Assembly: GCF_003987185.1 (NCBI RefSeq)
Contig: NZ_PIPS01000001.1
Span: 372,001-436,000 of the forward strand
Origin: Idiomarina aquatica
Lineage (GTDB): Bacteria > Pseudomonadota > Gammaproteobacteria > Enterobacterales > Alteromonadaceae
Length of the DNA stretch: 64,000 bases
Reading direction: 5' to 3'
Part shown: piece by piece, positions 21,043-25,607 of the stretch
Numbering within the stretch: the stretch's first letter is position 1
Layout of the letters: the number at the start of each line of letters is the position of its first letter
Translations under genes and position numbers: made by a program
The notes under the pieces: generated by a model
The model's input: only the letters and a program-made list of their open reading frames with translations
The model's database searches: none
Told to the model about the DNA's origin: nothing

Positions 21043-22383
21043 TTAATTTGTAGCCGCTTCCACTTCGTTCGCAATTTGCTGCGCAAACGTCCGCACGGTT
21101 TTCTCATCTTCTCCTTCGACCATGACCCGGATCAGAGGTTCAGTACCCGACTTACGCAACAACACCCGGCCTTTACCGGCCAGCGCGGTTTCGACTTCAT
21201 TGACGACGGCCTGTACGGTGTCAGATTCCAGCGGCTGCTCACCAGCGTTAAAGCGCACATTAATCAGCACCTGCGGCAGCTTTTTAAAATCACGGCTCAG
21301 CTCATGTAACGATTTGCCTTCAAACTGCATCGCCGCCAGCACCTGTAAGCCGGCAATAATGCCATCACCGGTGGTGTGATATTGACGATTAATGACATGA
21401 CCGGAATTTTCGCCACCCAAATACCAATCGCGTTTGACCAGTTCTTCAATCACATAACGGTCGCCCACTTTGGCACGAACAAACGGAATGTTCCGCCGCT
21501 CGCACTCTTTTTCCAACGCAAAGTTCGTCATCAGAGTGCCAACTACGCCGCCTTGCAGTTGCCCCTGCTGCTGCGCCGTCACCGCCAGAATATAAAGAAT
21601 CTCATCACCGTCGATAACACGTCCTTTGTCCGTCACCATCATGATGCGATCACCGTCACCATCGAGTGCCAGACCGACATTCGCTTTGTTATCCAATACC
21701 GCCTGTTGAAGCGCGTCCAACGACGTCGCGCCACAGTCTTTATTGATGTTCATGCCATCGGGTTTGGTGCCAATCTCGGTAACCTGTGCGCCCAGTTCAC
21801 GCAACACGTTTGGCGCAATGTGATAGGTCGCACCATGAGCACAATCCACCACAATGTGTAACCCTTGTAACGACAACTCAGACGGGAACACACTCTTACA
21901 GAATTCAATGTAACGACCCGCCGCATCGGCAATCCGGTTTGCACGACCTAAATGCTCCGAACTGACACATTCCATCGGCTGATCCAATAATCGTTCGATT
22001 TCCAGCTCAGTCGCATCCGGCAGTTTGTGCCCGTTATCGGCAAAGAATTTAATGCCATTGTCGTAATAAGGGTTGTGCGATGCACTGATAACAATACCGG
22101 CAGCAGCACGGAACGTACGGGTTAAATAGGCAATACCCGGCGTCGGCATCGGCCCGAGAAAGTCAACATTGACCCCGGCCGCCGCAAGTCCCGCCTCCAG
22201 CGCCGACTCAAGCATGTAACCACTGACACGGGTATCCTTACCAACCAATACCTTGCGTGTACCCTTTGCCGCCAACACTCGCCCGGCTGCCCAGCCGAGT
22301 TTTACCGCAAATTCCGGGGTAATTGGAAATTCTCCAACGCGTCCGCGCACACCGTCGGTGCCAAAATACTTCCGTTCGCTCAC
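21043..22383 (-). CDS. glmM: GlmM, phosphoglucosamine mutase
   Basis: Protein of 446 residues that converts glucosamine-6-phosphate to glucosamine-1-phosphate for UDP-GlcNAc, peptidoglycan and LPS synthesis. The phosphoserine loop is ISASHNP with S102, the same number as in E. coli. The metal-binding loop is LDGDGDR, the sugar-binding loop GGENSGH, and the phosphate loop near the C-terminus [12 protein letters not shown]. Its ATG overlaps the folP stop by 4 bases (folP-glmM pair). Confidence 0.97.
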
Positions 22384-23195
22384 AAATAGTCTCCCTCGAG
22401 TGTGGCTGCCACGACTTTCATCGCATCAACCGTTTCCTTAACATCGTGAACACGGATTATACGTGCTCCTTTGAGGGCTGCAATAGTTGCCGCCGCGATA
22501 CTCCCCGCTAAGCGCTCATCAACCGCCCGTCCGGTCACATGGCCAATCATCGACTTACGCGACATACCAATCAGTAGCGGCAGTTGCAGTTCGTGAAACG
22601 CCTGCAAACGTTGCAACATTTGATAGTTATGGCGCATCGATTTACCAAACCCAAAACCAGGGTCCAGCCACAGCCGCTGACGCTCAATGCCCGCTTCCTC
22701 ACAGGCCGCAATCCGCCGTTGCAAAAACGCCTTCACGTCACAGACCACGTCATCGTAACGCGGCTCATGCTGCATCGTGCGCGGTTCGCCCTGCATGTGC
22801 ATTAAGCACAGCTCAACCTCACTATCCGCAACCGCCTGCAAAGCCCCCGGCTGCTGCAACGCACAAACGTCATTGATCATGTCCGCACCCACCGCAATGC
22901 TCTCGCGCATCACCGCCGCTTTGGTGGTATCAACGGAAACAAAGGCATCAAAACGTTGCTTAATCGCCTCCACCACCGGAATCACCCGCGCCAGCTCTTC
23001 CTCCGTTGCCACTGCCTCAGCCCCCGGCCGCGTCGATTCACCGCCAACATCCAGAATGTCCGCGCCCTCATCCAGCAACCGCGCCGCATGATCGACCGCC
23101 TTAGCCACCGTATGATGACGCCCGCCATCACTGAATGAATCCGGCGTCACATTCAAAATTCCCATCACCCTCAAATGTTTAGTTTGTTTGCTCAT
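22380..23195 (-). CDS. folP: Dihydropteroate synthase
   Basis: TIM-barrel enzyme of 271 residues joining p-aminobenzoate to hydroxymethyl-dihydropterin diphosphate in folate synthesis; the sulfonamide target. Signatures are [16 protein letters not shown] at the N-terminus, [11 protein letters not shown], and the loop GFGFGKS with a following H-N that contacts the pterin. MSRK in GMSRKSMIG matches the conserved phosphate-site segment. In this organism the usual ftsH-folP gap is enlarged by two cruciform repeats. Confidence 0.96.
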
Positions 23196-23224
23196 CGAAG
23201 CTTCCTTATCGTTCTCAGGCTTGC

Positions 23225-23386
23225 GGTTGGTCGGGTAAGCAGCGGGCTGTTAGTGTTGGTCGCGGCGCCATTCAGGGGGACGCTGCAAGTACGTCCATGT
23301 ACGCTTGTTTCCGGCCATCCATGGCCTCCAACACCCCCTGAATGGCGCCGCAACCAACACCGCGCCCGCTACTCACCCGACCAACC
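23225..23386. repeat. Cruciform element A (about 160 bp) between folP and ftsH
   Basis: A 55-base left arm (23225-23279) pairs with a 53-base right arm (23334-23386) with few mismatches. The innermost 18 bases, GCGGCGCCATTCAGGGGG, match perfectly. The 54-base interior holds two further hairpins: GTAC-GTCCAT-GTAC (23289-23302) and the perfect palindrome GGCCAT-CC-ATGGCC (23313-23326). Read on the minus strand, the interior order is CCATGGATGG hairpin, then GGACGTACTTGCAGCGTCC. That is the same order as in element B at 23416-23596, so A and B are related and lie in opposite orientation. No credible gene lies in it. Confidence 0.85.
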
Positions 23387-23415
23387 GTAGACTAACTATC
23401 CGTTACCGCCGTATT

Positions 23416-23596
23416 GACCCCGGGGGAGGAGCGGCAGGAATATGGCAATAAGGTAATTGACCCACCCCCTAAGACAAGGGTGTCTGGCGCCATGGATGGC
23501 GCCAGTCAAGCCCTACAGGGACGTACTTGTGGGCGTCCCTTGGCTTAGGGGTGGGTCAATTGCCTGCCATAATCCTGCCACTCCTTCCCCCGGGTC
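23416..23596. repeat. Cruciform element B (about 180 bp) between folP and ftsH
   Basis: Left arm 23416-23473 pairs imperfectly with right arm 23544-23596; both share GACCC(C)GGGGG, GGCAGGA, TATGGCA and AATTGACCCACCCC blocks. Pairing can continue inward (CTAAGACAAGGG with CCCTTGGCTTAG). Two inner hairpins follow: CTGGCGCCAT-GG-ATGGCGCCAG (23484-23505, a perfect 10-bp stem) and AGGGACG-TACTTGTGGG-CGTCCCT (23517-23540). The layout is a multi-branched structure like element A (23225-23386), but with unrelated outer stem sequence. I see no open frame with a ribosome-binding site here. The 465-base gap 23196-23660 is accounted for by A, B and the ftsH terminator. Confidence 0.85.
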
Positions 23597-23620
23597 GTCA
23601 GCCAAAAGTCCTCAACCACA

Positions 23621-23645
23621 AAAAACCCGCCAGCGGCGGGTTTTT
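23621..23645 (-). terminator. Intrinsic terminator after ftsH
   Basis: AAAAACCCGCC (23621-23631) and GGCGGGTTTTT (23635-23645) form a perfect 11-bp stem with a 3-base loop; T-runs on both strands make it potentially bidirectional. It lies 15 bases after the ftsH stop. Confidence 0.88.
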
Positions 23646-23660
23646 ATTAACGATACCAGT

Positions 23661-25607
23661 TTATGACGTTGCGTCGCCTGGCTTTTCAACATTGATGGGG
23701 CGCTCCGGGCGCTCTTCGGTGTTGTCAGCCTTGGCGGAGCCGCCGCCGGTGTCGCCACCGTCATCGCGTGAGTCGTCCCAGCCTTTTGGTGGGCGAACGT
23801 CGCGACGGTTCATCAGGTCGTCGATCTGATCGGCGTCGATGGTTTCGTACTTCATTAAGGCGTCTTTCATGGCGTGTAAGATATCCATGTTTTCTTCCAG
23901 GATCTTCTTCGCCCGTTGATAGTTCGTATCAATAACAGCCTTAACTTCTTCATCAATCGCACGTGCAGTATCGTCTGACATGTGCTTGTGCTGAGTGACT
24001 GAACGGCCGAGGAACACTTCATTTTCGTCCTCTGCGTACAATAACGGCCCCATTTTCTCCGACAGACCCCATTGCGTCACCATCTTACGGGCGATTTCTG
24101 TCGCACGTTCGATGTCGTTGGAAGCGCCGGTGGTGACTTTATCAGCACCGTAAATCAATTGCTCCGCCAAACGGCCACCAAACAGACTGGAGATCATGCT
24201 TTCCAGATGTTGCTTGGTGTGGCTGACACGATCTTGTTCCGGCAGGTACATGGTAACACCCAGAGCCCGACCACGCGGAATGATCGACACCTTGTAGACC
24301 GGATCGTGTTCCGGCACCAGACGGCCAACAATGGCGTGACCGGCTTCGTGATAGGCTGTCATCGCCTTTTCATCATCGGTCATAACCATTGAGCGACGTT
24401 CTGCGCCCATCATGATCTTGTCTTTCGCTTTGTCGAATTCTTCCATGCTAACCACACGTTTGTTGCCACGAGCAGCAAACAGGGCAGCCTCATTCACCAG
24501 GTTGGCAAGGTCGGCACCGGAGAAGCCCGGGGTACCCCGTGCAATCAGTTCCGGCTTAACGTCGTCACCCAGCGGCACTTTACGCATGTGCACTTTCAGG
24601 ATCTGCTCACGTCCACGCACGTCTGGTAAACCAACCACCACCTGGCGGTCAAAACGACCGGGACGCAGTAACGCAGGGTCGAGAACGTCAGGACGGTTCG
24701 TCGCGGCAATCACGATAATACCTTCGTTACCTTCAAAGCCGTCCATTTCGACCAGCATTTGGTTCAGGGTTTGTTCACGTTCATCGTGCCCACCCCCAAG
24801 ACCGGCACCACGTTGGCGACCGACCGCGTCGATCTCATCGATGAAGATGATGCACGGCGCTGATTTTTTCGCCTGTTCGAACATGTCGCGCACACGAGAT
24901 GCACCGACACCGACGAACATTTCGACGAAGTCCGAACCTGAGATGCTGAAGAAAGGCACCTTGGCTTCACCGGAAATGGCTTTCGCCAATAAGGTTTTAC
25001 CCGTACCCGGAGGGCCTACCATCAGCACGCCTTTCGGAATCTTACCGCCTAAACGCTGGAACTTGGACGGATCTTTCAGATAGTCGACCAGTTCCACCAC
25101 TTCTTCTTTTGCTTCGTCACAGCCAGCAACGTCTTTGAACGTCGTTTTCATTTGCTCTTCGTTCATCAACCGCGCTTTGCTCTTACCGAACGACATGGCA
25201 CCACGGCCGCCACCGCCTTGCATTTGACGCATGAAGAAAATCCATACACCAATCAACAGCAGCATCGGGAACCACGAAATAAAGATAGAGGTCAGGATAC
25301 TCGGCTCTTCCGGCGGAGTACCTTGCGTTTGCACGTTATTCGCCAGCAAATCGTCCAGAATTTTCGGATCGTATTGTGTTGGAACCACGGTTTTAAATGT
25401 CTGACCATTATTGGTCATACCCGTAATGGTGCGCCCATCTTCGCCAAAGTCTGCACGGCGGATATTTCCGTCATTCACTTGGCTGACAAATTCACTGTAA
25501 GCCATTTGTGAACCGGAGGTTTCACCCGGACTGAAGCTCTGAAAAACGCTCATCAACACAACGGCTATTACCAGCCACAAGATGAGATTTTTTGCCATAT
25601 CGCTCAA
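23661..25607 (-). CDS. ftsH: FtsH, membrane-anchored ATP-dependent zinc metalloprotease
   Basis: AAA+ protease of 648 residues (E. coli 644/647). Two N-terminal membrane helices (about 5-23 and 100-122) flank a periplasmic domain. The AAA module has Walker A GPPGTGKT, Walker [12 protein letters not shown] and the second region of homology [19 protein letters not shown]. The zinc site is HEAGH in [11 protein letters not shown]. It degrades sigma-32, LpxC and unassembled membrane proteins. It lies 51 bases downstream of rlmE, with a heat-shock promoter ahead of the pair. The acidic/Gly-rich tail ends before a clear terminator. Confidence 0.98.

Follow-up and report, generated by a model that had tools for sequence, protein, structure and literature searches.

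Long palindromes in the ftsH-folP gap of Idiomarina belong to a mobile hairpin family with a two-loop tip resembling CsrA/RsmA sites

The gap between ftsH and folP in the 64,000-nucleotide stretch of Idiomarina DNA analysed here (the window) holds two long palindromes, A and B, which we interpret, with moderate confidence, as members of a mobile family of non-coding hairpins that act as RNA of one strand and dock CsrA/RsmA at their tip. Copies in many genomes, covarying stems, an asymmetry between the two strands, a recurrent loop pattern and loop spacing, a location at gene 3' ends, presence or absence between species, and carriage by transposons elsewhere were all observed directly. In the proposed mechanism, the long arms would form a stem of free sequence, and the tip would present two short ANGGAN hairpins, 22-26 nt apart, which one CsrA/RsmA dimer may grip together. 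Transcription would probably occur by read-through from neighbouring genes, and the most likely effect would be that of a dispersed CsrA decoy and 3'-end structure.

Two palindromes between ftsH and folP

According to the sequence and the list of open reading frames, the gap spans positions 23196-23660, between ftsH (23661..25607, minus strand) and, downstream of the gap, folP (22380..23195, minus strand), and both palindromes inside it are very stable. As minus-strand RNA, element A has a folding energy of -131.1 kcal/mol, where shuffled sequences average -67.6 (z -14.5, equalled by 0 of 200 shuffles), and the stem of element B, from 23416 to 23596, folds at -137.6 against -73.0 for shuffled sequences (z -13.6, 0 of 200 as good). 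On the minus strand, A consists of the 5' arm of its outer stem (23334..23387, from arm extension and the fold), hairpin 1 (23306..23333, TGTT-GGA-GGCC-ATGGAT-GGCC-GGA-AACA, with an ANGGAN loop at 23317-23322, assigned by position and alignment), hairpin 2 (23290..23301, TAC-ATGGAC-GTA, with an ANGGAN loop at 23293-23298, assigned by position and the loop-pattern count), a conserved stretch after hairpin 2, CTTGCAGCGT (23280..23289, columns 56-65 of alignment A3; model match 23269-23344), and the 3' arm (23224..23279, from arm extension and inverted repeats I1 and I3). A spacer (23388..23415) separates it from B, which diverges from A on the plus strand with a bulged 5' arm (23416..23480, from the fold, its inner part 23451-23480 by arm extension), hairpin 1 (23481..23508, TGTCTGGCGCC-ATGGAT-GGCGCCAGTCA, ANGGAN loop 23492-23497) and hairpin 2 (23514..23525, TAC-AGGGAC-GTA, ANGGAN loop 23517-23522), both assigned by position, and a 3' arm (23537..23596, from the fold). 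The bulge, which lies between an inner segment (23451-23480 / 23537-23565) and an outer segment of the B stem, slightly corrects the initial annotation, whose description of two long inverted repeats with unrelated stems and a common core in opposite orientation is confirmed by the folds and the inverted-repeat search.

Once A is reverse-complemented, its core follows the same order as that of B, namely a hairpin with CCATGGATGG, then GGACGTACTTG, then GCGTC. The inverted-repeat pairs that join A to B (I2 and I5) lie at the core, and the same search gives no pair between the arms of A and the arms of B. The common tip core measures about 55 nt and comprises hairpin 1, a short linker with CAAGC, hairpin 2 and GCGT, after which the 3' arm begins; hairpin 1 reads GGCC-ATGGAT-GGCC in A and GGCGCC-ATGGAT-GGCGCC in B, and hairpin 2 reads TAC-A(T/G)GGAC-GTA.

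Of 19 Idiomarina and Pseudidiomarina loci with species names, 18 lack the pair in the ftsH-folP gap; the I. aquatica locus has a pair in the same position, with arms that differ strongly. No target-site duplication (TSD), terminal inverted repeat (TIR) or unit end was found for A and B by eye against the pair-free relatives, which are themselves too diverged.

A family of copies within the genus and the class

Covariance models were built from seven copies of the host genome (R1) and from class-wide copies (R2). R1 gave 17 matches in the host genome at E up to 10, of which 13 were strong (below 1e-8), and R2 recovered the same 13 copies together with a decayed copy (E 0.015) and one weaker match. 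The decayed copy, G000:C2:430789-430841 (L116), keeps its long arms and has lost much of its tip. At E up to 0.01, matches were found in 25 of 60 genomes, the host included; within the genus, 13 of 18 other genomes match and 5 do not. The largest copy count, in a relative, is 32. The sample of the class, Gammaproteobacteria, yielded matches in 41 of 274 genomes (host included) and 36 of 222 genera, with low copy counts as 17 candidates were scored per genome, and the phylum sample (13 candidates scored per genome) yielded 22 of 349 genomes, all 22 of the same class as the host. Carriers identified by name include, inside the class, Halomonas sp. PA16-9, Marinobacter adhaerens pHP-187 and an E. 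coli IncN plasmid; those outside it are two plasmids of Ancylobacter and Xanthobacter, both with one identical transposon that carries the element. A local accident, which would have left A and B without other copies, is ruled out by the many copies that the covariance-model search found in the host genome, the genus and the class.

On the E. coli IncN plasmid (L287, NZ_CP058883.1), one hairpin copy adjoins an iron-containing alcohol dehydrogenase gene, and a 27-base stretch of the core is also matched by further enterobacterial plasmid records. A Pseudomonas plasmid found by BLAST (L284) is not a copy according to the model. Phage carriage was likewise set aside, one consensus core having no match in a phage collection and viral contigs having been scanned for the ISAs1 transposase only. 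Six tandem copies in one orientation with a period of about 227 nt (L234 / L242, G508:C1:94433-95643) resemble a natural multi-site array. Copies in the mdh-ispB and ABC-FAD gaps (L147, L148, L150, L151, L152, L157) occupy orthologous positions in six genomes that are about 72-93% identical over their shared DNA.

The counts of 190 and 134 used below come from the examined loci and represent part of all genome-survey hits: 199 model hits were reduced to 190 by context de-duplication and to 134 by arm de-duplication. A later set of 46 hits, reduced to 29 elements, contains none that were used to build the models.

Conserved pairing and strand asymmetry

Alignment A5 (75 distinct rows) has 95.6% standard pair cells versus 64.3% when shuffled, and 556 cells changed on both sides versus 150, with double changes at 21 of 22 pairs; displacing the structure by 1-3 columns lowers pairing to 37-45%. 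Fitting A5 to R1 favours the structure, so the arms beyond the model weigh more. Arm extension ran to a median of 41 nt, scoring 26.5 at the median; control pairs of arms from two different elements scored 1.5 at the median, 6.5 at the 95th percentile and 27 at most. Across six orthologous element sets, each from three to six genomes of the genus, 85 of 212 pairs vary, 21 of them in a compensatory and 64 in a one-sided manner. The elements keep their structure and not the sequence of their arms, as had been proposed from A and B alone, and the A5 covariation upholds that proposal; base-pairing covariation, whose loss among copies would have spoken for an accident, holds.

The two strands are not equivalent. 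When the 11 core-proximal arm pairs, which the model includes, are left out, mismatches on the oriented strand of the 134 distinct-arm elements number 289 for G.U versus 81 for A.C and 145 for G.A versus 61 for U.C. Counted per element, G.U exceeds A.C in 91, falls below it in 9 and equals it in 34, and the ratio of G.U to A.C is 205:54 in Idiomarina and 84:27 in other genera, compared with 15192:13499 for the unrelated-arm control; the oriented strand is the better folder in 128 of 134 elements. The asymmetry of the later set runs in the same direction and is weaker (G.U:A.C 30:15, p 0.036; 12 elements versus 5; oriented strand better in 22 of 29), and in orthologous arms G.U states occur at 30 positions and A.C states at 20. 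The excess of G.U over A.C implies that one strand functions in single-stranded form, RNA being the simplest case, which lends support to the structural RNA among the readings first offered. The asymmetry points to RNA or to a single DNA strand folded on itself, and the data fit either.

Tip hairpins and the CsrA/RsmA site

In 111 of 134 elements, the two hairpins each end in an ANGGAN hexaloop closed by three perfectly matched base pairs, and both have ANGGAN in 26 of 29 elements of the later set; these loop counts are partly selected, since the models were trained on loop-bearing copies. Both hairpins of A and of B have the loop as well. The second loop position varies, being T, G or A in hairpin 1 and T, G, C or A in hairpin 2. 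The pDCA copies depart from the pattern, as hairpin 1 of both has a five-nt loop, AGGAC, in place of the hexaloop.

These features agree with the CsrA site, taken as ANGGA in a six-nt hairpin loop closed by C-G or AC/GU. Excerpts of one study give the CsrA SELEX consensus as RUACARGGAUGU, mostly with six-nt loops and with AC paired to GU, report ANGGAN in CsrA NMR structures, and describe one CsrA dimer as bridging sites 10-63 nt apart, with an optimum above 18 (PMC7652899). Loop-to-loop spacing in the 111 elements (22-26 nt, median 24) falls within this range; hairpin 2 is close to the published consensus, and the stem of hairpin 1 exceeds that of most SELEX ligands in length. The host genome encodes three csrA paralogues (G000:C2:12750, C4:160527, C2:146025). 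CsrA was found in 38 of 41 genomes with the element and 197 of 233 without it, a difference that is not significant (Fisher p 0.23); the element-bearing genomes without a CsrA match are G067 and G159, both incomplete, and G254, which is 98% complete. In Pseudomonas putida, a published pull-down with RsmA, RsmE and RsmI recovered RNA from beside copies of the ISPpu8 transposase gene and from a 'long palindromic region downstream PP_3547' (PMC7937890), and by analogy these palindromes may belong to the same family as A and B.

No Csr/Rsm family of Rfam reached its gathering score in 20 element loci, where the Rfam matches were seven tRNA and one rimP leader, none overlapping an element. Around A and B at E up to 1, the only related match was a sub-threshold rsmX beside B (23620-23696, 20.4 bits vs 56, E 0.73). 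Sub-threshold matches of eukaryotic miRNA on A were ascribed to its long hairpin. The interpretation in the initial annotation stands in part, in that a mobile palindrome and a structural RNA were among its suggestions and both are supported, but it had missed the CsrA-type loops of both hairpins.

Transposon carriage and arm remodelling

Mobility is clearest in genome G307, in which 13 copies were aligned with their flanks. Twelve form a single palindromic type bounded by GGAACGAGC/GGAATATGC, and the same 3 bases (TTA, TAA or CTA) flank 10 of these 12, the other 2 lacking one end. An element of about 1.33 kb in the same genome has the same ends, TTA flanks and an ISAzo13-type transposase (DDE_Tnp_ISAZ013), and the model search finds no hairpin inside this autonomous element (L276). 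The G307 copies show the features of MITEs: they are non-coding, have TIRs and TSDs, occur in multiple copies and possess an autonomous relative with the same TIR. Together with the pair-free folP gaps of related loci, they bear out the suggestion of a mobile palindrome. Copies in genome G126 have common ends as well, other than those in G307.

A second type of carrier is the intact ISAs1-family element of pDCA, which has a 16-bp TIR, CAGGGCAATCGCACTA, and a 10-bp duplication, AGGTTGGGGT. A single hairpin lies inside each of its ends, with the transposase gene between the two, in minus-then-plus order. The duplications produced by ISAs1 elements measure 8-10 bp. We rejected the hairpin as a general part of the ISAs1 family, as it occurs in 0 of 8 other ISAs1-family loci, a small sample given that 746 plasmid records hold a relative. 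The ISAzo13-type and ISAs1 carriers show that different transposons bear the same tip. The hairpin order on pDCA is also that of the Idiomarina pairs: adjacent copies run minus then plus in 36 of 37 pairs in Idiomarina loci and 10 of 15 elsewhere (46 of 52 overall), and a neighbour copy lies within 500 bp for 74 of 110 hits in Idiomarina loci and 26 of 82 elsewhere, counts that include loci chosen for their clustered copies.

At one locus compared in six genomes of the genus, L122 has the core in the opposite orientation to L121 within the same inner arms (CTGATACAGGAG), L126 is rearranged, and L125 has an identical AA-to-GC change in both arms. Relative to L122 (about 1400-1600), L121, L144, L123 and L125 share the inner arms with an inverted core, like flip/flop. 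These sequence comparisons suggest that arms may be remodelled by copying or recombination between arms, in which case the pairing of the stems may owe something to mutation bias in addition to selection. Whole pairs of about 330 bp are near-identical at different places in L147 (2403-2734 and 4094-4444) and L148 (14278-14607 and 15984-16312), so that in this one Idiomarina group a pair can apparently move or convert as a unit.

A rival reading is a purely selfish DNA palindrome, in which a transposase or a single-strand-specific enzyme reads the tip on one strand and the arms are matched by template switching or conversion at a cruciform. The TIRs and the matching 3-bp duplications in 10 of the 12 G307 copies of one kind are as expected, as are the divergent pairing of neighbours, the core flip and the paired AA-to-GC change, and the strand asymmetry would equally fit one folded DNA strand. 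However, the loops agree with the CsrA site; the carriers span two or more transposase families (ISAzo13-type and ISAs1), so no single transposase explains the core; and the core is missing both from the eight other ISAs1-family loci and from the autonomous G307 element. We therefore regard this as a rather doubtful account of the family, and prefer an RNA that docks CsrA/RsmA.

Gene context

Of the 190 unique hits, 180 are flanked by genes on both sides, with 82 in convergent, 91 in co-directional and 7 in divergent contexts; some of the loci were chosen since copies cluster there, and paired and orthologous copies are counted apart in this census. A crude background from six loci chosen for their copies comprises 19 convergent, 50 co-directional and 15 divergent among 84 neighbours, and the window itself has 2, 40 and 2 of 44. 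Beside co-directional genes there is no sense-strand preference (40 sense and 51 antisense of 91, binomial p 0.29). The divergent pairing would supply one correctly oriented tip per transcript whichever way the gap is read, and this layout, by serving transcripts from either side, may be why the single orientation is without bias.

Given the bias to gene 3' ends, it is possible that the elements form a transcription barrier, as the initial annotation had also considered. That they are in essence bidirectional barriers, with long hairpins that stop read-through between units and loops conserved for another cause, appears unlikely to us. The 82 convergent and only 7 divergent contexts among 180 agree with a barrier, and intergenic repeats of P. 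fluorescens show a tail-repeat-tail bias which their authors link, in the portion of the paper cited here, to terminator-like stems (PMC2718517). Nevertheless, the background of gene orientation is only a crude estimate, neither the ANGGAN loops nor a fixed core is needed for a barrier, and inspection by eye found no U-run after the stem of A or B and a terminator-like hairpin already present in the gap at about 23620-23648, between the 3' end of ftsH and element B.

A REP/BIME-type element mobilised by a RAYT transposase is very improbable, for although GTAG-tagged REP-like hairpins occur near five of the host-genome copy loci searched (L014, L016, L017, L005, L011), a REP-like CGCGGCTGAAGCCGCTCCTAC hairpin lies between units of the G508 tandem array and the host genome has one Y1 transposase ORF (209 aa), the stems of A and B are at least 50 bp long and have no GTAG/CGTC tag at the foot, REPs being given as 20-40 bp in the excerpt consulted (PMC3733652), and the GTAG REP pattern finds nothing in the window. 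In L014, L016 and L017, the REP-like GTAG hairpins flank copies on both sides in inverted order. The Y1 transposase ORF (L100, G000:C1:530874-531113) adjoins GC-rich repeat arrays and is possibly a RAYT with its own repeat field.

Implications for the Csr system

CsrA activity is set by a few dedicated decoy RNAs. If A and B are mobile hairpins that dock CsrA/RsmA, the ten to thirty additional two-site hairpins of a genome would make a hidden, mobile contribution to the Csr balance, and the family could account for the capture of transposon-linked palindromes by three Rsm proteins in P. putida. Several observations weigh against the CsrA-docking reading, namely the lack of sense preference, the lack of a link to csrA, the odd pDCA loops, the hairpin-free autonomous element of G307 and the weaker asymmetry of the later set. 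A bolder and tentative extension is a class-wide mobile RNA module, in which unrelated transposons would repeatedly carry a bivalent CsrA-docking tip, scattered transcripts would titrate CsrA, and arms renewed by one-side copying would become private to each element; we consider this somewhat unlikely. The family is also a clear case for studying the origin of long palindromes with private arms and the persistence of their pairing.

Comparison with known systems

The element resembles the decoys CsrB/CsrC and RsmX/Y/Z in having hairpins with GGA in the loop, and those decoys are known to bind CsrA/RsmA. CsrB and CsrC hold 22 and 14 GGA motifs, respectively, according to an excerpt of PMC11882849. 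However, these decoys are single-locus sRNAs, whereas the A/B family has a two-site tip on a long variable stem and many copies. The RNA beside ISPpu8 in P. putida KT2440 is a possible parallel, being described in part of PMC7937890 as a long palindrome beside a transposase gene or alone that is bound in vivo by three CsrA-family proteins, a likeness to A/B by description and not by sequence.

Among DNA repeats, the R0/R2 MITEs of Pseudomonas fluorescens are, as here, short non-coding palindromes in gaps with a bias to 3' ends, but in the part of PMC2718517 consulted their inverted repeats are shared around a variable core, whereas in the A/B family the core is shared and the arms are not; unlike R0/R2, the A/B core is common to several genera and different transposon families. 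R178 of P. fluorescens, a dispersed 101-bp repeat with 9-28 copies per genome and an internal 11-bp inverted repeat (PMC2718517, in part), is a lead by description only. REP/BIME elements are, like ours, intergenic, downstream of genes and arranged as inverted dimers, with a proposed action as RNA, but excerpts of PMC3733652 and PMC2817692 give them as 20-40 bp with a GTAG or CGTC tag and without a two-hairpin tip.

The initial annotation gave no named family for these repeats, and we found no named RNA family in Rfam; in the open-licence papers searched, a core string was absent and nothing was found that describes the core. Palindromic gap repeats, MITEs and CsrA decoys are each already known. 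What appears to be new, with named DNA repeats compared through papers only, is a transposon-borne family that joins all three, in which private arms are combined with a common two-hairpin tip.
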